Below, in pieces: positions 5,635 through 21,121 of a stretch of DNA of 21,223 bases. Numbering within the stretch: position 1 is the stretch's first letter; every line of letters starts with the position of its first letter. The notes beneath the pieces were generated by a model that did not search any database, had not been told where the DNA came from, and worked only from the letters and a program-made list of their open reading frames with translations. The stretch is from Candidatus Aminicenantota bacterium. Its GTDB lineage: Bacteria; Acidobacteriota; Aminicenantia; Aminicenantales; Aminicenantaceae. Made by a program: the position numbers and the translations under genes. The stretch is taken from NCBI GenBank assembly GCA_016926925.1, contig JAFGNQ010000028.1, positions 1 to 21,223 of the forward strand, given 5' to 3'.

Positions 5635-6036
5635 ATGGAAGCAATCAAAGTCGAAAGCGATCTCAGCGAGATCAACAAAATAAGAGCTTACCTCAAAAGG
5701 AACCTCAATACCTTATCCATAACGGAGAAGGATTATTACTCCATAGAACTGTCGCTTTTAGAAATTTGTATCAACATAATCCGTTATGCCTATCCGAATG
5801 AAAAAGGAGAAATCCGGGTAAGAACTTGGAATGAGCCCGGTAAAATTATATTGGAAGTCAGTGATGATGGAATCCCCTTTGATCCTAGAAAAACAGACGA
5901 TCCCGACCTTGAAGAAATGATTTCCGGAGGGAAAAAAGGCGGGATGGGGATCTTTCTTGCTCGCAAACTCATGGATGGATTTGACTACAGGCGTAAGAAC
6001 GGCAAGAATGTGGTGACTTTGGTTAAACGGATCTAA
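5635..6036 (+). CDS. RsbW-like anti-sigma factor / serine kinase (HATPase_c_2)
   Basis: This 133-residue single-domain protein has the GHKL ATPase fold used by anti-sigma kinases of the RsbW/SpoIIAB class. The N box is [12 protein letters not shown] (Glu43, Asn47), the G1 box is [10 protein letters not shown] (Asp78, Gly80 region), and the G2 box is [17 protein letters not shown] (about residues 98-114). Known family members bind a sigma factor or other target and phosphorylate a STAS-domain antagonist on serine, with a PP2C phosphatase reversing this. No sigma factor or antagonist is adjacent; the nearest STAS and PP2C genes are at 14003 and 19448. The gene stands alone between metK and a ribbon-helix-helix gene. 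The family is clear; the target is not. Confidence 0.87.
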
Positions 6037-6484: not shown

Positions 6485-7651
6485 ATGAAAACTAAACTCA
6501 CACCGCCTCATGGAGGCAAATTGAATCCCCTTCTTCTTGAGAGTGAAGAGCTTGCGGCGACGCTAAAAAGAGCGCAATCCCTCCCACAGGTTCGGCTCTC
6601 ATCTAGAGAGACTTCAGACCTTATCATGATGGCGATCGGAGCTTTCAGCCCGATTGAAGGCTTTATGGGAAAAGAGGATTACTCGCGAGTTGTCCACGAA
6701 ATGCGTCTTGCAGACGGAACCCTATGGCCGATACCCATCACCTTATCCGTGAGTGAAACGGAATCCGAAAATCTTCCGATCGGATCGGATATCGCTCTTG
6801 TCAGTGCTGAAGACAATATGGTGATGGGAACGATGACCGTTAAGCAAAAATTCCGCTATGACAAAAAGCTCGAGGCTGAACATGTCTTCCGAACTGCCGA
6901 TGAAGCTCATCCGGGCGTAGCCAAAGTCTATGCCCAACAGGACATCCTTCTCGCCGGACCGGTGAAAGCCGTCAGCGAAGGTCCTTACCCCGCTCTTTAT
7001 GGAAAAAAGTATGGGAGACCTGCAGAAACACGCTCTCTCTTCGAAGAAAAAGGATGGGCTACCATAGCCGCATTTCAAACCAGAAATCCCATTCACAGAA
7101 GTCACGAATACTGCACAAAAATTGCCCTCGAAGTGTGTGACGGACTGTTAATACATCCCTTGGTAGGGAAGCTCAAAGAAGATGATATTCCTGCGGACGT
7201 CCGTATGAAATGTTATGACGTTCTGCTCCGTAATTATTATCCCGATGACAGGGTTGTTCTCAAGGTCTACCCCATGGAGATGCGTTATGGCGGCCCAAGA
7301 GAAGCCCTCCTTCATGCCATTTTCCGCCAAAACTTCGGGTGCAGCCATTTGATCGTGGGAAGAGACCATGCCGGTGTCGGCAGCTATTACGGGCCCTTCG
7401 ATGCGCAGAAAATATTTGACGAAATTAACGAGGAGGACCTTTTCATAAAGCCATTGAAAATCGACTGGACATTCTGGTGTCACAAATGTGACGGGATGGC
7501 GTCAATGAAAACCTGCCCTCATTCTAAAGACGACAGGGTGCTCATCAGCGGAACGAAGCTGCGCGAAATGCTGGCCTCCGGCAAGGAACCTCCAAAAGAA
7601 TTCAGCCGCCCGGAAGTGGTCCGAATCCTGATGGACTACTATCACCGCTAG
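6485..7651 (+). CDS. sat: Sulfate adenylyltransferase (ATP sulfurylase)
   Basis: Sat joins ATP and sulfate to give adenosine 5'-phosphosulfate (APS) and pyrophosphate. The 388-residue protein is the homomeric, single-chain type rather than CysD/CysN. It has the substrate motif [12 protein letters not shown], the [17 protein letters not shown] signature, and a [15 protein letters not shown] zinc-binding segment near the C-terminus found in many bacterial and archaeal members. A near-perfect AGGAGGT lies just upstream of the ATG. cysC follows after 16 bases, so the two enzymes probably act in sequence from one transcript. Dissimilatory sulfate reducers also use this type, but no aprAB, dsr or assimilatory reductase gene is visible in the window, so direction and purpose cannot be fixed from the sequence. 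Confidence 0.95.
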
Positions 7652-7667
7652 AGAGGGAGATAAGAAA

Positions 7668-8273
7668 ATGACGATTCAAAAAGCAAAGAACATCACCTGG
7701 CACCAAGGGACGATCGCCAAGCAAGACCGTGAGCGGCTCTTGCAGCAGAAAGGCATTGTCATCTGGTTTACCGGACTTTCCTCATCAGGGAAATCTACCA
7801 TAGCCCGCGCGGTAGAAGAGAGCCTTTTCGAACGAGGGCACCTGGCTTACGTTTTGGACGGTGACAACATTCGACACGGGCTGAACAAAAATTTGGGTTT
7901 TTCACCTGAGGACAGAGAGGAAAACATACGGCGTATCGGGGAAGTTGCTAAACTTTTTGCCGATGCCGGTTTTATCGCCATGACTGCTTTTATCTCGCCT
8001 TACCGGGGGGACAGAGACAAAGCGAGATCTCTCCTCCCCGATGGAGAATTCATTGAGGTATTTGTCAAAGTGTCGCTGAACCAGGCTGAGGAAAGAGATC
8101 CCAAAGGGCTTTACAAGAAAGCACGGGCGGGAGAAATCCCGGAATTCACGGGAATTTCCGCTCCTTACGAAGAACCGGTCAATCCGGAAATCACGGTTGA
8201 TACCGACGAACTGGACATCGAACAATCACGCGATTTGGTCATCCGCTATCTGGAGCAGAAACAGGTTATCTGA
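7668..8273 (+). CDS. cysC: Adenylylsulfate (APS) kinase
   Basis: CysC phosphorylates APS at the 3' position to give PAPS, the sulfonate donor for sulfotransferases and a substrate for PAPS reductases. The 201-residue protein has the P-loop GLSSSGKST at residues 36-44, the APS-binding segment [16 protein letters not shown] with [16 protein letters not shown], and the SPYRGDR and [19 protein letters not shown] segments. Length is normal for a stand-alone kinase. It lies 16 bases after sat. It converges with the secreted kinase-like gene at 8286, leaving only 12 bases; a weak five-base hairpin (8281-8295) there is not a convincing terminator. Confidence 0.95.
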
Positions 8274-8285
8274 CTGGACGTCTGT

Positions 8286-9116
8286 TCAATACAGAACTTT
8301 GTCCTCGCCTAGTTCCTTGATCTTCTTTTCAACCCAGGTAACGATCAAATCCTTGCGAATGAGAACGGCTTCGATTTCTTTGTCCGTCAGGTATTCTCCG
8401 ACTGTTTCACGGAGAATGCCGTCATCCAGTGTTTTCAGTTTTTCATAAAAGGCTCTGGGCAGCTCTTTCATAAGCCTCGGGCCTTCATGGTATTTTTCAT
8501 CATAGATAAGCTTTTTTGTAAATTTTTTGTCTGTACGGAACGACCTGGAGTGGTCGATAAGAATCATCCGCCAATCATCCATGATCAAATATTGATTCTG
8601 ATGTCGGTCCTCATTGGCGATCAAGTTGTCGAATGCCCTCTGTAAATAAAGTGCTCTGTTCCAATAAAACACTTTGTATGAAGGAGTTTTGACGTCTTTC
8701 TCATATTTATCCTTCAAGCTCATCATGGCATCTATCCATATTTGACAGGAGCCCAAGTCTCCTTGGAAGCGCCTCTCGACGGTTGGAGGGACCATGTTCA
8801 ATCCCAAGTATTTATCGAGGCGGTAGGCGGCTATCTCCCATTTCCAGCTTTCCATAAAGCCCTTCATGCGGCCCTGCGGGTTTTTCCATATGGCCATCTT
8901 TGTGATTCCATCCTTTTCCATGGTTAGCCGCCACGGCCGTGTAACAGCTTCTCGTGCACTGAAGGGCTGCTCGGAATGAGTGATTTCCGCCTCCAAGAGA
9001 AAATTTTCCCATTTTGCTCGTTCCGCTATTTCTTCGGGTTTGAACTGCGTCCATGCAGGCAAGGCAGCTCCAAGCAAAAAGACAAAAATCCATAGCATGC
9101 CTCGATATTTGTTCAT
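8286..9116 (-). CDS. Secreted HipA/FAM20-like kinase-fold protein, copy 1
   Basis: This 276-residue protein starts with a Sec signal peptide (hydrophobic residues about 7-23, ending near AWTQ) and then a domain resembling the HipA/PI-kinase/FAM20C group. A likely ATP-binding lysine lies in AIWKNP (Lys78), the helix glutamate in EIAAYRLDKYLG (Glu94), a conserved LNMVPPTVER stretch follows, then the catalytic loop ANEDRHQNQ (Asn168, Asp170) and the metal-binding IDHSRSFR (Asp188). This order matches active members of the fold. GTG 9119 is an alternative start, but GGAGG lies six bases before ATG 9116. Two paralogues lie upstream on the same strand. The signal places it in the periplasm or outside, where substrates are unknown. 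The fold is assigned from motifs only. Confidence 0.68.
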   Translation of the reverse strand: MNKYRGMLWIFVFLLGAALPAWTQFKPEEIAERAKWENFLLEAEITHSEQPFSAREAVTRPWRLTMEKDGITKMAIWKNPQGRMKGFMESWKWEIAAYRLDKYLGLNMVPPTVERRFQGDLGSCQIWIDAMMSLKDKYEKDVKTPSYKVFYWNRALYLQRAFDNLIANEDRHQNQYLIMDDWRMILIDHSRSFRTDKKFTKKLIYDEKYHEGPRLMKELPRAFYEKLKTLDDGILRETVGEYLTDKEIEAVLIRKDLIVTWVEKKIKELGEDKVLY

Positions 9117-9165
9117 CACTTCCCTCCCTCGTTGTCCCTAATACATATTTTTATTATTCACGGTA

Positions 9166-9241: not shown

Positions 9242-10066
9242 CTAGTACAAGACGTTCTCCTCACCCTTTTCTTTGATCATATCTTGTATTTCTGCCAATA
9301 AAAGGTCTCTGCGGTCAAGAACGGCTTCGATTTCATGGTTCTTGAGATAGAGACCGGTCACGGCTTTTATTTTCTCGAAATCCAAAGCCTTGAGGTTCGT
9401 AACAAAAGCGCGGGGAAGCATCCTGAACAGCTTTTGAGCCAGCAGACCGTTACGTCCCAAAACGAGCCTCTCTCTGAACTCGTCGGCGCTGCGGAAGCTT
9501 CGCGAATGATCGATGAGAATCGTACGCCAGCCTTCCATATAGCGGATGTTCTGCTGGGTTCGGTCTTCATTGGCAATCAGACAATCAAAGGCTCGAGCCA
9601 GGTATTTTTGTTTGCTCCAGTTGTCCAGCTTATCCTGAGGAATGTCGATCCCTTTCTGCATTCTTTCGAGATCGTTCATAGTGCTCGTGATCCAGTACTG
9701 AAAGGATCCTTTTCTCCCTTTGAACTCCCTTTCCACTGTCGGCGGGATCATGTTCAGGCCCACAAGTTTATCCAGCTCATAAGCGGCAATTTCATACTGC
9801 CAGCCTTCGTAAAAGCCTTTCTGCATGCCGCTGGGATTTTTCCAGCAGCCGCTCTCTTCTTTCTCTTCTAATTTGAGATAGAGACGGCAGGGCTTGGTCA
9901 CACCTTCTCCGATATCTTCGGATTTCATAATTTGCGCCTTTTTTAAAAATTCTTCGAGTGCACTTCTTTGAGCGAGCTCTTCAGGCGTGAACTGGGCACG
10001 AAGCAATGGGACGACGGATAGACAAAAAGCACAAAAAAAACCCGTGGTTAGAAATCTTCTTTTCAT
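9242..10066 (-). CDS. Secreted HipA/FAM20-like kinase-fold protein, copy 2
   Basis: This 274-residue paralogue of the gene at 8286 has a signal peptide (MKRRFLTTGFFCAFCLSVVP, cleavage probably near LLRAQ). It keeps every motif of the kinase-like domain: Lys76 in CWKNPSG, Glu92 in YEIAAYELDKLVG, LNMIPPTVERE, Asn166 and Asp168 in IANEDRTQQN, and Asp186 in LIDHSRSFR. The C-terminus EIEAVLDRRDLLL...GEENVLY closely matches the first copy. A GGGGAG site precedes the ATG and a good candidate promoter lies just upstream, so this gene and copy 1 may form their own transcript. A kinase acting on extracytoplasmic proteins, sugars or lipids is plausible from the fold; the substrate cannot be read from the sequence. 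Confidence 0.68.
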   Translation of the reverse strand: MKRRFLTTGFFCAFCLSVVPLLRAQFTPEELAQRSALEEFLKKAQIMKSEDIGEGVTKPCRLYLKLEEKEESGCWKNPSGMQKGFYEGWQYEIAAYELDKLVGLNMIPPTVEREFKGRKGSFQYWITSTMNDLERMQKGIDIPQDKLDNWSKQKYLARAFDCLIANEDRTQQNIRYMEGWRTILIDHSRSFRSADEFRERLVLGRNGLLAQKLFRMLPRAFVTNLKALDFEKIKAVTGLYLKNHEIEAVLDRRDLLLAEIQDMIKEKGEENVLY

Positions 10067-10170: not shown

Positions 10171-11562
10171 TTAGCAGGCTGATTTATACAAGAGCTTGTG
10201 TTGTCTTACGATCAGGATGCCCAAGACAATCCAAATGAAGATGAGGACCACATTGAAGGATGCAAATTTTGAAACGTTGAAAGCGAAATAGGTTGTTCCG
10301 AGAAACACGATGAGGCCCGAAAGCAGATCCCCCGCCCTTTGAAAAAACGTATCGATCGCTGCTTTGGCCTTGTATTTTTCCTCCCGCGAGGTTATCAGAA
10401 ATAGCGCATGCCTCGTGGTGTTCATCAAAGAATAATCCGTTCCGTTCTCAAAAATTTTCACCCATTTTACGATGAGCAAAGATATTCCGGCGGCAACAAA
10501 AGCATATCCGCCGAGAGCAATGAACGGCAGAACGAATAGAGCTCCGCGAACACCGATCCATTTGAATACACGTGATACGACAAAGAGCTGTATGATCAAT
10601 GCCAAGAAGTTCACATACTTAAAGAACCCTGAGTAGAATTTACCGATGTATTCCTCAACATTCAGCCCTCCCGATTGCCCTGTTTCAACAATCTTGGGTG
10701 CTTCTCTTGTGATGTATTTGCCCAAAATGTACTCGCCGTTTGTATTGACATAGTTGAGTATGAGCACAAAAAAAGCGATGTAGATGAGATATCTTCTCTT
10801 GAAAACGAGCTTGAATCCACCGCCTTTTTTCAAGGGTTTTTCCAGTTCCTTCCCAGAATCTTTCTCGTTGCACATCATTTGGCTCTCCGGTCTCAGGGCT
10901 TTTCTAAGCTCTCTGAGGTGGGTGATCCGGGTTAGAAGAATACAGACAAGCAGAATCGCACCCGAAACCAGCATCATTTGGTAGAGACCGATGGGTTTCA
11001 CGAGCCATCCGAATATGGCGCTACCTGAGAAGGAACCGAAAGTCGCCCCGATAGCGACTAGCGGAAACAGACGCTTTCCCTCTTCCGCGGAATAGATATC
11101 ATTGGCAAATCCCCAGAATTGGGCAGGGACCAGCAGGTTGAAAATACCTATCCATACATAAAAAATGACTCCCATTGTACCGAGGTCGACCCCTGCAACA
11201 GATAGGAAATAAAACAGAACGAGGTTTGAAATAAAAAAGAGTGTCACCCAGGTGATCAATCTCTGTCTTGAAACGTGAGAAGCAATCGAGCTGAAGGCTT
11301 TTACGACGAAAATGAGCGAGACAGCGGTTGCAGCCGAGAGATAGCTTTTAATTTCCGCCCCTTTCCCTGCCAGAATTAAAGCTTCCCTGACGGGCTTTAT
11401 AAGGTAATAGGACATGAAAATCAAATAAATGTTCAGCGTTAAAAGTAACGCCGTAGGAGCCTCTCCAGGATAGAGTTTGGCAAATAATCCGAGAGCCTTA
11501 GAGACGGCCATTCCGGACGCAAGTCGATTTGAGCCGCTCTCCCCTTTTAACGGAAGATTCAT
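10171..11562 (-). CDS. NTT (ATP/ADP translocase) family nucleotide carrier-like protein
   Basis: This 463-residue protein has about twelve hydrophobic segments and the hallmarks of the NTT/TLC ATP-ADP translocase family: a charged first-helix motif YYLIKPVREALIL, the loop NDIYSAEEGKRLFPLV, and the late segment KYKAKAAIDTFFQRAGDLLSG, corresponding to the family's K-GKAAIDV-R-GKSGG region. NTT carriers exchange or co-transport nucleotides across membranes in plastids, Chlamydiae and Rickettsiae, and homologues exist in free-living bacteria with unclear roles. A GGAGGAGGG site six bases before ATG 11562 selects this start over an upstream ATG at 11601. It lies between three secreted kinase-fold genes, so it may be linked to extracytoplasmic phosphorylation. 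Transport and substrate are not demonstrated by sequence. Confidence 0.8.
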   Translation of the reverse strand: MNLPLKGESGSNRLASGMAVSKALGLFAKLYPGEAPTALLLTLNIYLIFMSYYLIKPVREALILAGKGAEIKSYLSAATAVSLIFVVKAFSSIASHVSRQRLITWVTLFFISNLVLFYFLSVAGVDLGTMGVIFYVWIGIFNLLVPAQFWGFANDIYSAEEGKRLFPLVAIGATFGSFSGSAIFGWLVKPIGLYQMMLVSGAILLVCILLTRITHLRELRKALRPESQMMCNEKDSGKELEKPLKKGGGFKLVFKRRYLIYIAFFVLILNYVNTNGEYILGKYITREAPKIVETGQSGGLNVEEYIGKFYSGFFKYVNFLALIIQLFVVSRVFKWIGVRGALFVLPFIALGGYAFVAAGISLLIVKWVKIFENGTDYSLMNTTRHALFLITSREEKYKAKAAIDTFFQRAGDLLSGLIVFLGTTYFAFNVSKFASFNVVLIFIWIVLGILIVRQHKLLYKSAC

Positions 11563-11591
11563 GGAGATCCCTCCTCCATCGGACTCCCATG

Positions 11592-11620
11592 AATTTTTCA
11601 CACCATCGGAAAAATGTCAA
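11592..11620 (-). promoter_or_regulatory. Possible promoter for the NTT carrier gene
   Basis: On the minus strand a perfect TTGACA (11620-11615) is followed after 17 bases by AAAATT (11597-11592), a poor -10 match. The predicted start near 11585 would leave the ribosome site and ATG 11562 intact. The gap from 11563 to 11803 otherwise shows a GCGGCCGC palindrome near 11796 and no gene. Confidence 0.35.
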
Positions 11621-14002: not shown

Positions 14003-14350
14003 ATGCGAATACAATCAAGAAAAAAGGATGATATCATCATCTTTGATATCGAGGGAGAAATTCGGCGTTCAGATATGAGCGATGTCACGCTTCATCAGCT
14101 CGTAAAAGATCAATTGGATGCAGGTGATAAAAAAATCCTCTTGAATTTCGAGAAAGTTGAGTTTATCGATAGTTTTGGCGTCGGCGAAATTCTGGCGAGT
14201 TACATCTCCACGCATAATTTTGGGGGACAGTTCAAAATCGCAAAAATCTCGCAAAAGCTCTATCTCGTCTTCCAGGTAACGATGCTAACCAAAGTGCTTG
14301 ACATTGTGGATGATGTTGAAACAGCGATATCCAGCTTTTTAAAAGAGTAA
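14003..14350 (+). CDS. STAS-domain anti-sigma factor antagonist
   Basis: This 115-residue protein is a single STAS domain of the SpoIIAA/RsbV type. The strand-helix pattern and the phosphorylation-site segment VEFIDSFGVGEILASY are recognisable, with Ser57 following Asp56 where the family's regulatory serine sits; the usual second Ser is replaced by Phe58. In known systems the unphosphorylated antagonist sequesters an RsbW-type kinase and so frees its target, while phosphorylation by the kinase turns it off and a PP2C phosphatase reactivates it. Such a phosphatase is encoded at 19448 in the same direction, and an RsbW-like kinase lies at 5635. An AGGGA site lies five bases before the ATG. The NTT-HEAT gene follows after 35 bases. 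Confidence 0.9.
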   Translation: MRIQSRKKDDIIIFDIEGEIRRSDMSDVTLHQLVKDQLDAGDKKILLNFEKVEFIDSFGVGEILASYISTHNFGGQFKIAKISQKLYLVFQVTMLTKVLDIVDDVETAISSFLKE

Positions 14351-14385
14351 ATCTTACATAACTCGAACAAAGGCTGACCTGATTC

Positions 14386-16911
14386 ATGGCAAAAAGCCGG
14401 CTGTTCCGAATTCTATCCCTTGTCGTCGAGATCAAGCCGAAAGAAGAGTTCATTGCCCTTTTGCTTTTTTCATATTTCTTCCTGATCACCGCCTCTTTCA
14501 CTATCATCAAGTCTCTCAGAAATGCCCAATACCTGAGAACTTATGACGCTATTGACTTGCCCAAAGCTTACCTCCTTACCGCCGTCTTTATGGCATTCGT
14601 CGTCGCCGTGCATATCAAGCTGGAAATCAAACTGTCAAGAACTCTGTTGATTATCACCAGCTGCATTTTTTTTGTCATTTCCGGAGCGGTTTTTGCTTTC
14701 CTTTTCCTAAGGCCTTGGATGTGGGTCGCCTTAGCTTTTTTTATCTGGGCTAACGTCTTCATCACCGTACTTATGACCCAGTTCTGGATTGTCGTCAACG
14801 ACGTCTTCAATCCACGGGAAGCAAAAAGATTGATCGGTTTTATCGGAAGCGGAGGGATACTGGGAGGAATTATCGGGGGGTTATCTGTCGGCTTATTGGA
14901 TCTGTACATCCATGACTACCTACTCTTTATTGCCTGCGGTTTGATGGTCGTTACCCTATTTGTACTGAGAATCATTTTTGCCTGGCAGAAAAAAAATCAT
15001 CCCGGGCTCAGCAGCGTGAAACCAATCGTCGGCTCCGAGTACCCGTCGCCTAAAAAAGTAGGATTCAAAGATTGTTTCGATACCGTGCGGAAAAACAGAT
15101 ACCTCAGGCTTTTAGCGGCTGTCGTTACGGTCACTCTCATTGTTTCCACTCTGATCGACTGGCAATACAACAGAGTCGTCGAAGTTTCACAGAAACCTGC
15201 CTTGTACGCTTCCCTGTTCGGATATTTTAACGCGATCTTCCTGTCCGTTCCTTTTTTCTTTCAACTTTTGATGACGAGCAATATTATCAAGCGTTTCGGA
15301 ATCCGGATCACCCTGCTTGTCTATCCCATAATGCTTCTCGTTTGCAGTCTAGCGATAGGCATCGTTCCAAGCCTGGGGTTTGCGCTGTTGATTAAGGGAT
15401 CTGACAAGAGCTTATCATTCTCCCTCAATCAATCCGTGCGTGAACTTCTTTTCATCCCCGTTTCCCAACAGCTAAAATACAAGGCCAAAGTCTTCATCGA
15501 TATGTTCGTCAATCGGTTCGCTAAAAGTGCAGCGGCCTTATTGCTTATGCTTGTCCTGGCGATCCCATTCAAATTCCCACCGGATCAAGAGCCCGTTTTC
15601 CTTTGGAAAAGCCAGATTACGATCGTCAGCCTGATATCTTTTATGTTGATTCTGGTTTGGGTCTACTTGAATCTGAAAGTGAGCAACGAATATGCCGACA
15701 CGGTCAAGGGCAAATTGGTTCAGCAACGGGCCCGAGGAGACAGCCTCGTAGATGAAAAAGTCGATATCGGTTTCATGAAGCTCGTTATCGATTCGTTAGA
15801 GAATAAAGACCGGAGTTCGGTTTTGCATGCGATGGATGTTTTCGACTTGATCAGCCGGGATAAGCTCACACCTGAAGTGCGTCGATTGATTTCGTACAAA
15901 GAAAATGAAATGAGGGCTTCTGCACTCGGAGCTCTCATCGAAGGTTCTGAAATCGGGATTGCTCCTGAAATCGAAGAAGCGGTCGATGAGAAAGCGATGG
16001 TGGCCGAGATCAATGAGATCATGGGCTTGGATGTCTATCAAAAAGTCATGAACGGGTACATGGACAAGATGCTTGCTGAGGAGGATAAGGCCAGTGAAAT
16101 AGAAAGAATGGAAGCCGCCCGGTCGATCGGCTTCATGAACGTGGACTCACCTTTGTCCGTAAGATTGGCTGAATTTCTTTGGGATGAATCTCCGGAAGTC
16201 CGAAGGCAAGCTATAATGAGCGCAGCAAGGTTGAAGCGCAGAGAGTACGTCACCGGTCTGGTCGAAGCGATGCACAACCCGCAGACAAAGGAAGACGCCA
16301 AAGCGGCCCTGTCAGAGTTTGGAGCCGCTATTACCGGAACTCTTGCCGATTACATGGGGGATGAAGATGTGGACCGAGAAATCCGAAGCGGCGTTATCAC
16401 GCTTCTCGGGAAAATAGGAAATCAAGAAGCTTCCGAATATCTCATCTGGGAACTGGCGGATAACGATAAAAACTTCCTTACGGAAATCATTGATGCCTTG
16501 GATAGAATTCGATCAGAAAGGCAGGACGTCACTTTTAAAGAAGATGTTGTGAAGAAAATTATCGGCGACTTGATCAGAAGATCTTGCAGTTGCATTATTG
16601 CCGGATACGAATCAGACCCGGAAGGAAAATATTTGGAAAAGGACAGCGGTAAAAAAAACGGCCATCTTACTGATGATCTTATGAACATTTTCAAACTACT
16701 CGGCCTCATTTATTCTCGAGAAGATATCATTAAAGCCTATCAAAACATTGAAATCGGCACCAAGGATTCCGTGGCATACGCAATCGAACTCCTCGACAAC
16801 AGAATAAGAAAAGAAATGAAAGATGCCTTGTTTCCTCTCATTGAAGACTTGAGCCCAAGAAGCCGCTTAAGAAAATGCCGGCTGCTCCTTAAAAATTTTC
16901 CTATTTTATGA
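14386..16911 (+). CDS. NTT-like membrane domain fused to HEAT-repeat domain, copy 1
   Basis: This 841-residue protein has an N-terminal membrane half (about residues 20-430, roughly twelve hydrophobic segments) of the ATP/ADP translocase superfamily type. The first-helix motif is ASFTIIKSLRNAQYL, the loop NDVFNPREAKRL lies near residue 138, and KYKAKVFIDMFVNRFAKS lies near residue 364, equivalent to the NTT KGKAAIDV region. The C-terminal half (about 430-841) is soluble and contains HEAT-type helical repeats such as ESPEVRRQAIMSAARLKRRE, ending in a conserved block with DIIKAYQNI. The next gene is a full-length paralogue. HEAT repeats usually bind proteins, so the tail may connect a carrier or nucleotide sensor to the flanking STAS and phosphatase proteins; that link is inference. 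The ribosome site is weak. Confidence 0.8.
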   Translation: MAKSRLFRILSLVVEIKPKEEFIALLLFSYFFLITASFTIIKSLRNAQYLRTYDAIDLPKAYLLTAVFMAFVVAVHIKLEIKLSRTLLIITSCIFFVISGAVFAFLFLRPWMWVALAFFIWANVFITVLMTQFWIVVNDVFNPREAKRLIGFIGSGGILGGIIGGLSVGLLDLYIHDYLLFIACGLMVVTLFVLRIIFAWQKKNHPGLSSVKPIVGSEYPSPKKVGFKDCFDTVRKNRYLRLLAAVVTVTLIVSTLIDWQYNRVVEVSQKPALYASLFGYFNAIFLSVPFFFQLLMTSNIIKRFGIRITLLVYPIMLLVCSLAIGIVPSLGFALLIKGSDKSLSFSLNQSVRELLFIPVSQQLKYKAKVFIDMFVNRFAKSAAALLLMLVLAIPFKFPPDQEPVFLWKSQITIVSLISFMLILVWVYLNLKVSNEYADTVKGKLVQQRARGDSLVDEKVDIGFMKLVIDSLENKDRSSVLHAMDVFDLISRDKLTPEVRRLISYKENEMRASALGALIEGSEIGIAPEIEEAVDEKAMVAEINEIMGLDVYQKVMNGYMDKMLAEEDKASEIERMEAARSIGFMNVDSPLSVRLAEFLWDESPEVRRQAIMSAARLKRREYVTGLVEAMHNPQTKEDAKAALSEFGAAITGTLADYMGDEDVDREIRSGVITLLGKIGNQEASEYLIWELADNDKNFLTEIIDALDRIRSERQDVTFKEDVVKKIIGDLIRRSCSCIIAGYESDPEGKYLEKDSGKKNGHLTDDLMNIFKLLGLIYSREDIIKAYQNIEIGTKDSVAYAIELLDNRIRKEMKDALFPLIEDLSPRSRLRKCRLLLKNFPIL

Positions 16912-16918
16912 ATAGGCG

Positions 16919-19405
16919 ATGAGTGATATAAGTCAATATTTCCGCCGCATCAGCGACATAAGGGATGAAGAGGCGGTCTCGGCACCTCTTCTCTTTACTT
17001 ATTTTTTCCTGATTACTACTTCGGTTTATATCGTCAAGCCGGTTAAAATTTCGACTTTTCTCGCTAAGCTTGAACCCCATAGACTTCCATACGCCTACCT
17101 CCTAACCGCTCTGATTATGGGTCTGGTCGTCGCTTTAAACACAAAACTCGTCGATTCCGTAAGGCGGCAGCTTTATATTTCGGCGAGTTTGATTTTTTTT
17201 GCCGGGAACTTGGTCCTATTTTGGTTTCTCTTTAAACTTAATTGGATTTGGATATCCATGATCTACTGGATATGGGCTGATATTTTCACAATTATGACCG
17301 TAACCCAATTTTGGATAACAATAAATGACATCTACCATCCGAGACAAGCAAAAAGACTGGTAGGCTTCCTGGTAAGTGGCGGTCTTCTGGGGGGAATCTC
17401 AGGCTCGTTGTTATCAGCTTTTTTTGCGCGAAGCCTTGGAACGGAGAATCTGCTGTTGATCTGTCCGGTCTTGCTCCTTCCCTGTATCGCCGTCATCCAT
17501 TTTGTTTACAAAAAATCTCCAAAGCTCGGAGAAGCCCCAACTGCACGGGATGCAGCAGTCAAGAGGTCTCGCATTGGATACAAGGAGAGTTTCGACATAG
17601 TCAGGAAAAGCCGCTATTTGCTGTTATTGAGCAGTATCATGGGGGTGTCCGTCATCACCACCACATTGGTGGATTTTCAATTTAACTCCGTTGTGGAGAG
17701 TGCGTTTTTCCTCAAAGATTCGCGAACCGCTTTTCTCGGTGCTTTTTTTACTGGGTTGTTGATTTTTTCCTACCTTCTTCACATTCTCCTGACAAATCGT
17801 ATTCTAAAAAATTTCGGATTCAAAACAGCCCTCATGATCGCTCCTATATTTCTACTTTTCTGTTCTTTTTCCGTATTCTTTCTTCAAGGCGTTTTCCTCA
17901 TTTACTGGGCAGCGTTCTTGAAGGGCGGAGATAAAAGCCTTGCCCATTCTTTGAATCAATCCGTGCGCGAGTTGCTCTACATTCCCATATCTTCTGAGAT
18001 CAAATTCAAGGCAAAAGTGTTTATCGATATGTTCATCAATAAATTTGCCAAGGGGATAGCAGCCGTTCTTCTGCTTATAGGAATGTCCCTCGGCCACATT
18101 TCGCTCGTTCAAGTAAGCATCATCACGGCCGTCGCTTCACTTATATGGCTCTATCTCAATCAAAAAATCACAAAAGAATATGTCGGACACGTCAAAAATA
18201 ACCTCCATATCAAATGGCAGGATGCCGATAAGCTCATCTCCGAAGCCGTAGATATCGACCTGGCTAAATTGGTCTTCGATACGATCCAAAGTAAGGAGAA
18301 AAGTTCCGTACTCTATGCCATGAATCTCTTCGATTTACTAAAAAGAGAAAATCTGAGTCCGGAGATGAGAAAAGTCATTTCTCTCAAGTCTAACGAAATC
18401 CTTGCCAGTTCTATGGACTCCTTGTTGGATCTGGACGGAGAACTTCTACTCCAGGAGAGTGATGACCTTTTTGAGCAGAATGATTTGAGCACCCAAGTCA
18501 AAGAAATTATGTCCCAGAACGTCTATCACCGGATTATGAAAGAGCATATTGGAAAACTTCTGGATAAAAAAGGATATAGAGACGAAGTAGCCAGGATGGA
18601 AGCAGCAAAAATGATCGGGATGCTGGAATCCCCAGGCCCTTTAGCCCGTGATCTCATCAAACTGCTGCAGGATGATTCTCCTGAGGTTTTGGAATACGCC
18701 ATCGAGAGTGCAGGAAAACTCAAGCATAGAGAGTTTGTGCCCCATCTCATCAGTCAGCTCTCCAATCCTTTGACTTTGCGCGTCGCGAGTAAAGCCCTTA
18801 TCGGGTTCGGAAGCAAAATTGTAGGAACTTTGAAAGACTATTTAGGAGATGAGTCGGAGAATATCCAGGCAAGAAAGGCCATTCCTGATATTCTAGCCCA
18901 TATCGGGACTCAGCGCACTGCCGATTTTTTATGCCTTGACCTTCATAAAAAAGAAAGCGACCTCGAATCTGAAGTCATAGAAGCGCTTTACAAGATGAGA
19001 CTGAGAGATACACAAATTCATTTCCAGAGAAATCTTGTTCTCTCCAAAACGCTTCAAACCATAAAAAAGTGCTACCTAATTTTATCGGAGATGCACGACA
19101 TCCTGTCGGATAAAAAGAAGGATGGCCTAAGAATCGACCTAGAAAGAAATCTAGCCCGACACCTTAAACATGTGTTTGAGCTTCTCAGTCTCATTTACCC
19201 TCTCAACGATATCATCAAAGCCTATCAGAACATTCGTGCGGGGACGAAAAAATCCATTGATTATTCCATCGAGCTCTTGGAAAACACTCTCCAAAAAGAT
19301 ATCAAAGAATTCCTTGTGCCTTTAATCGATGACATATCCTTCGCGGACCGTGTCCGCAAATGCAAGAGCATGATCAAGCCGCTGGAAAAGGTCAATTTTT
19401 CTTGA
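16919..19405 (+). CDS. NTT-like membrane domain fused to HEAT-repeat domain, copy 2
   Basis: This 828-residue paralogue starts seven bases after the first copy and has the same layout: a membrane half (about residues 20-410) with TSVYIVKPVKISTFL, NDIYHPRQAKRL and KFKAKVFIDMFINKFAKG, then a soluble HEAT-like half with SPEVLEYAIESAGKLKHRE and the C-terminal DIIKAYQNI block. The first-helix motif differs from copy 1 (KPVKI against KSLRN), so the two may differ in substrate or have lost transport and act as sensors. The two are clearly alike along their whole length but well diverged, so the duplication is not recent. Both are bracketed by signalling genes rather than metabolic ones. Membrane location is certain; function is not. 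Confidence 0.8.
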   Translation: MSDISQYFRRISDIRDEEAVSAPLLFTYFFLITTSVYIVKPVKISTFLAKLEPHRLPYAYLLTALIMGLVVALNTKLVDSVRRQLYISASLIFFAGNLVLFWFLFKLNWIWISMIYWIWADIFTIMTVTQFWITINDIYHPRQAKRLVGFLVSGGLLGGISGSLLSAFFARSLGTENLLLICPVLLLPCIAVIHFVYKKSPKLGEAPTARDAAVKRSRIGYKESFDIVRKSRYLLLLSSIMGVSVITTTLVDFQFNSVVESAFFLKDSRTAFLGAFFTGLLIFSYLLHILLTNRILKNFGFKTALMIAPIFLLFCSFSVFFLQGVFLIYWAAFLKGGDKSLAHSLNQSVRELLYIPISSEIKFKAKVFIDMFINKFAKGIAAVLLLIGMSLGHISLVQVSIITAVASLIWLYLNQKITKEYVGHVKNNLHIKWQDADKLISEAVDIDLAKLVFDTIQSKEKSSVLYAMNLFDLLKRENLSPEMRKVISLKSNEILASSMDSLLDLDGELLLQESDDLFEQNDLSTQVKEIMSQNVYHRIMKEHIGKLLDKKGYRDEVARMEAAKMIGMLESPGPLARDLIKLLQDDSPEVLEYAIESAGKLKHREFVPHLISQLSNPLTLRVASKALIGFGSKIVGTLKDYLGDESENIQARKAIPDILAHIGTQRTADFLCLDLHKKESDLESEVIEALYKMRLRDTQIHFQRNLVLSKTLQTIKKCYLILSEMHDILSDKKKDGLRIDLERNLARHLKHVFELLSLIYPLNDIIKAYQNIRAGTKKSIDYSIELLENTLQKDIKEFLVPLIDDISFADRVRKCKSMIKPLEKVNFS

Positions 19406-19447
19406 TATTTCTTCGTATCGGGCGTTATAATCGTAAAGCCGTATCAA

Positions 19448-21121
19448 ATGCCATATCTTTACATATATCCGAAAGAGGGGGAGTTCCAAAAATTCCTTCT
19501 ATCCGAAAAGAAAATTTCCATCGGGAGATCATCCGAAAACGATATCCCTCTGCCTGATCCTTTTTGCTCGGGAAAACACGCCTTCATCTACCGTGGTGAT
19601 AGTGGATTCGTTCTCCGTAACAATCAAAGCAAAAACGGGATGTTTGTCAACGGGAAACGCATAGTGAATGAGGTGGAACTCAAAAAAGGAGACGAAATAC
19701 TTATCGGTACGACCAGGGTAGTATTTGACAGGGAAATTTCTTCCAATGTCGAAATGACGGATTCAGCATCACACTCAGCCAATGTCAATACGATCATGAA
19801 CCTGGACGAGGTCCTCAAAAAACATGACATAAGCACGACCATCAAGTCTGCGAAACCGGTCGATTTCGAGCAGGTCAAGCTAAAACACAGGCTTCTCGCA
19901 ATCATTAATGACGTCAACAAAGCACTCCTTCTCCATATGTCTTTAACCGATCTTTTAGAGCACATCATGGACCGGATTTCCGAGCATATTTCGATGGACA
20001 GAGGAATCCTCATGCTGAAAGAAGGCAATCCGGCTCAACTGATCCCCAAAGTCATTCGCATCAATAACGATCGTCTGAAAAACGAAAAAATTCACGTGAG
20101 CCAGAGTATCGTCAACATGGCGATCAATAAACACTCCTCGCTTCTGATATCCGATGTTCAGGATGATTCCCGTTTTAAATCACAAGACAGCATTCTCAAA
20201 ATGAACATCAAATCGGCTATGTGTGTTCCTTTGTACAACAACAAAGAGATTATAGGCATCATTTATGCCGACCGGATTTCTCTCTTGAAACCTTTCGCCG
20301 ATGATGATTTGGAGCTACTGACGCTCCTATCGAACCTGGCAGCCGTTAAAATCGAACATTCGATTCTGTATGAACAATCCATTGCAATGGAAAAATTGGA
20401 GAAAGAGCTGGAATTGGCGGCTCAAATTCAAAGAGATTTCCTGCCGAAGGAAAATCCTAAATGCCGGAATTTCGATATCGCCGGGGCAAACTTTCCCTGT
20501 TATCAAGTCGGAGGAGATTTCTACGATTTCATCCCTATCGATCCCGAACGGTTGGGAATCACTATTGCGGATGTTTCCGGTAAAGGTGTGAGCGCGTCTT
20601 TGCTCATGGCTTCCATGAGAGCGCGCCTTCATGCCGAGATCAATCCGCATATCATACTTCAAGAGATGGCAAAAAAACTGAATGATTTTGTTCATAAAGA
20701 CACTGCCTCGTCCGCTTTTATAACCTTCTTTTTCGGGGCCCTCAACATTCAGACGGGAGAGTTAGAATACCTCAATGCCGGACACACTCCTCCTGTAATC
20801 ATGAATAAAAAAGGAAAAGTCCGTCGTTTGGAGAGCGGAGGATTCTGCCTCGGGATGTTTCCTTCGGTCGGCTTCGAGATTCAAAAATGCTTTTTTGACA
20901 TCGGAGATACGGCCTTATTCTTCACAGATGGATTGACCGAGTGCAGAAATTCTGCCAATGAGGACTTTAAGGAAGAAGGTCTCATAGACCTGCTTGCAAA
21001 ATACAGAAAGTTGTCTGCACAAAAACTTTTAGAGAAAATTTATGAAGATCTTGACCTCTTTACAAGTGATATGGAACAAATGGATGATATGACCTTAGTC
21101 ATTGTCAAAAGAATCTTTTGA
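19448..21121 (+). CDS. FHA-GAF-PP2C (RsbU/SpoIIE-type) serine phosphatase
   Basis: This 557-residue soluble protein has three domains. The FHA domain (about 1-95) shows GRSSENDI at 26-33, SGKH at 41-44 and SKNGMFVNG at 61-69, the phosphothreonine-binding residues. A GAF domain (about 150-300) contains MDRGILML, SAMCVPLYNNKEIIGIIYAD and DLELLTLLSNLAAVKIE. After a coiled-coil linker (EKLEKELELAAQIQRDFLP), the PP2C domain carries metal-binding aspartates in GGDFYD (355-360), ADVSGKG (374-380), FTDGLTE (492-498) and DDMTL (546-550). Known relatives dephosphorylate STAS antagonists of the type encoded at 14003, with sensory domains controlling activity. Here the FHA domain suggests docking on a phosphothreonine protein, and GAF a small-molecule or redox signal. 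It lies 42 bases after copy 2 of the NTT-HEAT pair. Confidence 0.92.
   Translation: MPYLYIYPKEGEFQKFLLSEKKISIGRSSENDIPLPDPFCSGKHAFIYRGDSGFVLRNNQSKNGMFVNGKRIVNEVELKKGDEILIGTTRVVFDREISSNVEMTDSASHSANVNTIMNLDEVLKKHDISTTIKSAKPVDFEQVKLKHRLLAIINDVNKALLLHMSLTDLLEHIMDRISEHISMDRGILMLKEGNPAQLIPKVIRINNDRLKNEKIHVSQSIVNMAINKHSSLLISDVQDDSRFKSQDSILKMNIKSAMCVPLYNNKEIIGIIYADRISLLKPFADDDLELLTLLSNLAAVKIEHSILYEQSIAMEKLEKELELAAQIQRDFLPKENPKCRNFDIAGANFPCYQVGGDFYDFIPIDPERLGITIADVSGKGVSASLLMASMRARLHAEINPHIILQEMAKKLNDFVHKDTASSAFITFFFGALNIQTGELEYLNAGHTPPVIMNKKGKVRRLESGGFCLGMFPSVGFEIQKCFFDIGDTALFFTDGLTECRNSANEDFKEEGLIDLLAKYRKLSAQKLLEKIYEDLDLFTSDMEQMDDMTLVIVKRIF

Follow-up and report, generated by a model that had tools for sequence, protein, structure and literature searches.

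A conserved Aminicenantes locus joins a cytosolic partner switch, NTT-type carriers and predicted exported FAM20-like kinases

The stretch of DNA analysed here, which we call the window, comprises 21,223 nt of a Candidatus Aminicenantota bacterium (assembly GCA_016926925.1, contig JAFGNQ010000028.1, positions 1-21,223, forward strand). It carries a cassette of four genes in one direction, encoding a STAS protein, two membrane proteins that fuse an NTT carrier domain to a HEAT-type tail (NTT-HEAT), and an FHA-GAF-PP2C phosphatase, separated by gaps of only 35, 7 and 42 bases (14003-21121; Table 1). This arrangement had been described in an original prediction made from the window, and our analysis confirmed it. 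Divergent from this switch/NTT-HEAT operon runs a second operon for FAM20-like proteins, a stand-alone NTT carrier and a phosphatase. The best-supported conclusion of this work is that a conserved locus joins a cytosolic switch, NTT carriers, and FAM20-like kinases, predicted to be exported, together with their phosphatase.

Table 1. Genes of the switch/NTT-HEAT cassette and of the FAM20-NTT-phosphatase block in the window
Feature	Coordinates	Strand	Basis
STAS-only protein, RsbV/SpoIIAA type	14003..14350	+	PF01740 1.5e-9; TIGR00377 above cut-off; Ser57 in DSFG
NTT-HEAT fusion 1, 841 aa	14386..16911	+	carrier domain ~1-445, then HEAT-like tail
NTT-HEAT fusion 2, 828 aa, old paralogue of fusion 1	16919..19405	+	PF03219, PF13646; 38% identity; own clade
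FHA-GAF-SpoIIE/PP2C phosphatase, 557 aa	19448..21121	+	domain matches and kept residues
RsbW/SpoIIAB-type HATPase_c_2 serine kinase, 133 aa	5635..6036	+	PF13581 8.1e-28
PPP-type phosphatase, predicted exported, 399 aa	12585..13784	-	PF00149 8.9e-12; 2z72 4.2e-35
FAM20-like pseudokinase, predicted exported, 264 aa	11804..12598	-	profile match; without catalytic Asp
Stand-alone NTT carrier-like protein, 476 aa, without HEAT tail	10171..11601	-	PF03219 3e-17
FAM20-like kinase, predicted exported, 274 aa, NEDRT variant	9242..10066	-	
FAM20-like kinase, predicted exported, 277 aa, NEDRH	8286..9119	-	

From the 100 relatives found by one scan of a one-genome-per-species collection we kept the best 80, which represent 72 loci (denoted by L numbers). 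The Aminicenantes set (L001-L051 and L068) was assigned by record titles and later by tree and, with the window, makes 53 loci; its rows, including several titled Acidobacteria, form one clade apart from other phyla. The record of L005 is titled Clostridiales bacterium and that label is probably wrong, as it shows a typical Aminicenantes locus and groups with Aminicenantes in the tree. The original prediction had offered its own refutation, namely that the genes would not be neighbours in related genomes, and the neighbours turned out to be kept. The STAS gene lies directly upstream of NTT-HEAT in all 44 loci with room for it, counting one (L051) that gene calling had missed and an unrestricted six-frame search recovered (43/44 before), and the FHA-GAF-PP2C gene lies directly downstream in 45 of the 47 loci with room, the exceptions being L036 and L043. 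Among these 45, the phosphatase is truncated in L008, split in two frames in L038, and in one frame with a frameshifted NTT-HEAT in L050. The four-gene arrangement is far from chance.

Among fully flanked loci, 24 of 39 have two NTT-HEAT copies and 15 have a single one. In a FastTree phylogeny of 98 rows with midpoint root, all 27 first copies fell into one clade and all 32 second copies into another, from which we conclude that the pair is old. Single-copy rows occur in both clades, those with a kinase gene behind PP2C adjoining the second copies, and the single-copy loci may be losses from the old pair, judging from the midpoint-rooted tree. The chromosome-level genome of L008 carries, besides its main cassette with the truncated PP2C (L008:7610-14382), an intact PP2C elsewhere behind a HEAT-only stub (L086), and a further HEAT-only protein close to a STAS gene of the opposite strand (L087). 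These HEAT-only proteins hint that the tail works without the carrier.

The proteins of the predicted switch keep the residues that its chemistry would call for. Ser57 of STAS is present in 43 of 43 aligned rows, as are R27, S41, N63 and N68 of the FHA domain and D357 and D360 of the PP2C domain; D375 is kept in 42 of 43 rows, and D494, D546 and D547 in all 41 rows with a letter there. We take these to be the serine of the DSxG motif, the phosphopeptide-binding residues of FHA and the metal-binding aspartates of PP2C, respectively. The kinase expected in such a switch was missed by the original prediction. In 11 loci, all with one NTT-HEAT, a kinase-type protein of 139-149 aa is encoded directly behind PP2C; the one in L068 is a HATPase_c_2 protein (RsbW/SpoIIAB-type kinase domain, 8.2e-28), and an open reading frame of the window (5635-6036) shares a BLAST cluster, spanning 25 loci, with it. 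RsbW models match the window protein below their cut-offs. E43, N47, D77 and G79 are invariant in 13 rows, and presumably correspond to the E, N, D and GxG motifs of the kinase ATP site. On the L014 chromosome this kinase is by far the best PF13581 match (95 bits, the next having 39). In a sample of 100 genomes from the class to which that of L008 belongs, taken as the Aminicenantes class, STAS was found in 30, the kinase in 31 and both in 28, with limits (at least 129 bits for STAS and at least 140 for the kinase) that were set after seeing the score gap and counts uncorrected for kinship; in 23 of the 28 both lay on one contig, on the same strand in 23 of 23 and within 12 kb in 22. With the kinase identified and the key residues intact in all three switch proteins, the locus probably encodes a complete and active partner switch, and the partner-switch reading is thereby strengthened. 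In two further proteins (P0126 and P0128) FHA, GAF, SpoIIE and HATPase_c_2 occur in one chain, that is, switch phosphatase and kinase are joined.

The carriers of the window have PF03219 matches above the cut-off and the NTT carrier fold, and both fold and sequence place them closest to ATP/ADP translocases; the stand-alone NTT matches NTT1 structures by sequence (3.5e-6 and 2.8e-4), and the TIGR00769 match is far below its cut-off. By these measures the fold is NTT. In the NTT-HEATs the carrier domain comes first and a C-terminal HEAT domain follows (PF03219 and PF13646), and the predicted structure of the first copy has an all-helical HEAT-type tail, so that the tail proposed earlier is backed by both sequence and model. 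A 1509-aa frame at L085 was set aside, as its first ~700 residues match no carrier profile and were taken as spurious.

The second operon encodes kinase-like proteins for which export is predicted: a simple hydropathy scan finds a hydrophobic N-terminal stretch in 55 of 55 FAM20-like proteins. Among 42 domains of the kinase group, K79 and E95 are each present in 41, D171 in 40 and D189 in 42, the rest being gaps; in the pseudokinase group, Asp is absent from the catalytic Asp column in 28 of 28 domains. The kinase model is closer to the FAM20 kinase fold than to other kinase folds. As the Pfam Fam20C score is below the gathering cut-off (16 against 26.8 bits), we describe the proteins as FAM20-like and do not file them as FAM20 members; the match to the SCO1664 family TIGR03843 is likewise below its cut-off (50.7 against 172.4). 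FAM20 is listed among eukaryotic- or Metazoa-specific clusters in an excerpt of a kinome survey (PMC9758233), and a portion of a review (PMC12189002) describes the bacterial kinase CotH as similar in sequence to Fam20C. For the phosphatase, the only solved relatives at E <=0.01 are 2z72, 1v73 and 2zbm, and we take the best of them, 2z72, to be the Shewanella-type protein-tyrosine phosphatase. In other species the pseudokinase is fused to the phosphatase.

Kinases and carriers also go together across genomes. In the Aminicenantes loci, a FAM20-like gene lies no more than two genes from a stand-alone NTT in 18 of 24 calls, and the phosphatase no more than three genes away in 19 of 24. We also drew 199 genomes evenly from the phylum of L008's genome, which we take to be Acidobacteriota in GTDB. 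An NTT-HEAT profile match (1e-20) was found in 78 of these and a FAM20-like match (1e-10) in 36, and all 36 were among the 78 (hypergeometric 4e-18, uncorrected for kinship); each of the 36 has, among the matches listed, one in the carrier part of the profile. Carrier and FAM20-like gene lie within 10 kb in 16 of the 36 genomes; positions were available for 76 of the 78 genomes with an NTT match, many of the assemblies being fragmented. Genes for ATP sulfurylase and APS kinase (6485-8273) are situated in the window between the switch kinase and the FAM20-NTT block; members of these two gene clusters occupy the same spot in L031 and L041, and lie directly 5' of the cassette in L036 and L043.

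Outside the Aminicenantes, other regulators stand beside NTT-HEAT. There, cNBD domains are often found with it, either in adjacent genes (L062, L069) or fused; L062 also has PAS histidine kinases and a receiver-only protein nearby, L054 a receiver-PP2C protein, and L057 a SpoIIE-type neighbour of the same size. The cNBD cluster has no member in the 53 Aminicenantes loci, and L085-L087 and L092-L096 gave no cNBD profile match. It would appear that different soluble regulators act on one kind of HEAT tail, and this variety favours the carriers being the output of the switch. Elsewhere in the phylum, pairs of adjacent NTT-HEAT genes occur in divergent or convergent orientation (L088, L097, L098), with a cNBD fused to one of the two in L088 and L097 and to both in L098.

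Two further kinds of neighbour were seen. A family of ~600-aa proteins, which we denote c6, is encoded near NTT-HEAT or NTT in several phyla, with Zixibacteria, Latescibacterota and Nitrospirales among the groups (L052-L055, L057, L059, L060, L062, L064-L066, L070, L098, L099), often with PAP2 and Omp85 genes nearby. These proteins have D-x-K-x-x-N and D-F-G-like motifs, some with lipoprotein-like N-termini, and no significant match emerged when they were compared with the FAM20-like set, Pfam and solved structures; going by the motifs, c6 may be a further kind of exported kinase. The NTT, NTT-HEAT and cNBD genes of Balneolaceae are followed by one for a 1262-aa protein (L069:11175-14963 and L071:11422-15210). 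In L069 it has metallophosphatase and Omp85 domains, and is a possible surface phosphatase beside the carriers.

We propose, tentatively and at a little less than an even chance, that the locus provides a regulated supply of ATP to envelope kinases, gated by the partner switch through the HEAT tails. The exported FAM20-like kinases would phosphorylate envelope targets, whether protein or glycan, outside the inner membrane, and the exported PPP-type phosphatase with the pseudokinase would reverse this. Since the periplasm has no ATP of its own, as stated in a section of one paper (PMC9177699), carriers would be needed: the stand-alone NTT and the two NTT-HEATs would move ATP or a related nucleotide outward, swapping it for the spent form. 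In the cytosol, the FHA-GAF-PP2C phosphatase and the RsbW-type kinase would set the phosphorylation of STAS at Ser57, and one form of STAS would dock on the HEAT tails, opening or closing the carriers. The cytosol would thereby decide the amount of envelope phosphorylation.

A number of observations weigh against this proposal. Contact of STAS or PP2C with a HEAT tail is something that we infer, and the 1350-aa HEAT-PP2C fusion at L050 was rejected as a frameshift, its HEAT match stopping at 657 and the stretch after it reading as a shifted frame; a search for further fusions showed none with an NTT domain among the best 120 of 1681 matches. The two loci L036 and L043 keep STAS and one NTT-HEAT with no significant SpoIIE-type match in any frame, and in the class sample two genomes have STAS only and three the kinase only. 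Plain Foldseek puts PI3-kinases, not FAM20, first for the kinase model. For six of the 24 stand-alone NTT calls, no FAM20-like gene lies that close (L021, L027, L033, L037, L044, L050: none within two genes), the L021 call being really a cut NTT-HEAT, and outside seven Aminicenantes-type genomes only 10 of 29 have a FAM20-like gene within 10 kb of a listed NTT match; the lack of correction for kinship in the co-occurrence counts also belongs here. In other phyla a FAM20-like match was found in one of 15 NTT-HEAT genomes (15 of 21 loci), and it is weak, at 37 bits in a 3428-residue frame. With FAM20-like proteins nearly missing from these genomes, NTT-HEAT did not arise for FAM20-like kinases.

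The substrate residues add to these difficulties. Mutants of AtNTT1 Lys155 and Lys527 are described, in the portion of the report concerned (PMC3306366), as having lost or weakened ADP and ATP binding. We compared these sites using the five commonest residues per group in 99 NTT-HEAT and 26 stand-alone rows. Lys155 aligns to column 64 (62 if prolines are matched), where no Lys is among the five commonest residues of any group. At the Lys527 site, 60 of the 79 Aminicenantes NTT-HEATs have Lys or Arg, and 23 of the 26 stand-alone NTTs have Asp. The Glu245 site has Asn, Asp, Ser or Gly in most rows, with Glu in 7 of 33 second copies. At the Glu385 site most NTT-HEATs have Asp, and 14 of the 26 stand-alone NTTs have Glu. 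The canonical NTT1-type charged set (K155, E245, E385, K527) is not retained as such. Because Lys155 has no counterpart and Lys527 is replaced by Asp in the stand-alone NTTs, ATP/ADP exchange by these carriers is not assured.

These changed pocket residues are what a carrier for something other than a nucleotide might show, for example for a phosphorylated sugar or lipid precursor handled by the exported kinases and phosphatase. The fold is common to transporters of many substrates, and PAP2 and Omp85 genes lie near NTT-HEAT in other phyla. We nevertheless think such a substrate quite improbable, considering that ATP/ADP translocases are the closest relatives by both fold and sequence, that in every group most rows retain the counterparts of AtNTT1 Lys511, Lys515 and Asp519, and that exported kinases need a nucleotide donor. 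It is also conceivable, though in our view unlikely, that the locus merely brings together two independent neighbours through chance or shared expression, one a partner switch accompanied by carriers for nutrient nucleotides, the other a set of exported kinases and phosphatase that has its own carrier. The two operons are indeed divergent, and in the L008 genome the switch kinase and the FAM20-like genes are far from the cassette. On the other hand, the blocks adjoin in both branches despite their different order, as if the switch had jumped across the FAM20-NTT block, and in L091 and L101 a phosphatase-FAM20 fusion lies behind an NTT-HEAT with cNBD, on the same strand.

The main rival reverses the flow of information. 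The original prediction had envelope nucleotide setting the switch, which is one option and unproven. On such a reading, the NTT-HEATs would be membrane sensors or transceptors, passing the state of nucleotide or carrier through the HEAT tails to PP2C or STAS, upon which the RsbW-type kinase would free its target, a sigma factor or some other protein encoded elsewhere in the genome. In favour of this, conservation of the switch parts goes with that of the NTT-HEATs, an excerpt of one article (PMC11619594) presents RsbU-type phosphatases as the sensors in switches of this type, histidine kinases and response regulators adjoin NTT-HEATs in other phyla, and a HEAT-only stub directly precedes the intact PP2C of one chromosome-level genome (L086). 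The cNBD fusions, receiver domains, and exported kinases and phosphatases found next to NTT-HEAT agree no less well with the opposite direction, and a sensor leaves those kinases and the phosphatase beside the carriers unexplained. Moreover, none of the 18 window proteins searched with Pfam is a sigma factor (the search did not extend to neighbours in other loci). In two chromosome-level genomes nothing exceeds the cut-off of the sigma-B/F/G model TIGR02980, but sigma-70 relatives match below it, so that a target may still exist. We rate a sensor role as rather unlikely and keep gated ATP supply as our working proposal.

That NTT-HEAT fusions exist is already known: NTT-HEAT and NTT-HEAT-cNBD proteins were reported by Major et al. 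2017, and the functions of the fusion genes are called unknown in a passage of that survey (PMC5381601), in whose main text STAS never occurs. Among open-licence PMC papers, as far as their accessible parts go, we found none that links NTT-HEAT to a partner switch or to exported kinases. The locus thus offers a concrete and testable answer to the role of NTT-HEAT, with carriers beside predicted exported kinases that need ATP where there is reportedly none. It also presents a partner switch that has carriers as its conserved neighbours in the operon, and a bacterial group of predicted exported kinases with a predicted fold closest to FAM20. If the proposal is true, reversible envelope phosphorylation, powered from the cytosol, is a regulated bacterial process. 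A broader version, which we put forward with more doubt than confidence, bears on why free-living bacteria carry ATP/ADP-translocase relatives at all: they would keep them to power envelope phosphorylation, with a switch, or elsewhere a cNBD or receiver, gating ATP flow through the HEAT tails. This would be the bacterial counterpart of ATP import into the endoplasmic reticulum (ER) or Golgi lumen for secretory kinases; the need to bring ATP into the ER lumen is stated in part of one paper (PMC9286291).

With the NTT-HEAT proteins of Major et al. 2017, those described here share the order of NTT and then HEAT, with PF03219 and PF13646. In contrast to the NTT-HEAT-cNBD proteins, there is no adjoining cNBD gene in Aminicenantes, and STAS, PP2C and an RsbW-type kinase are found instead. 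Compared with the plastid and chlamydial ATP/ADP translocases NTT1 (9j3l, 9j3m, 9j3n), the carriers have no Lys155 counterpart, a mostly changed Glu245, and an added HEAT tail. The switch resembles RsbU-RsbV-RsbW and SpoIIE-SpoIIAA-SpoIIAB in its DSxG-serine STAS, its HATPase_c_2 kinase with conserved E, N, D and GxG, and its metal-binding PP2C aspartates; it differs from them in the absence of a sigma factor from the scanned window proteins, in the FHA domain on the phosphatase, and in the one or two NTT-HEAT membrane proteins encoded between STAS and PP2C. Unlike the FAM20 Golgi and secretory kinases (FAM20A/B/C), the window proteins are bacterial, ~275 aa long, and below the Fam20C cut-off. 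The locus phosphatase, finally, differs from the PPP-type protein-tyrosine phosphatases (2z72, 1v73, 2zbm) in being fused or adjacent to a FAM20-like pseudokinase.
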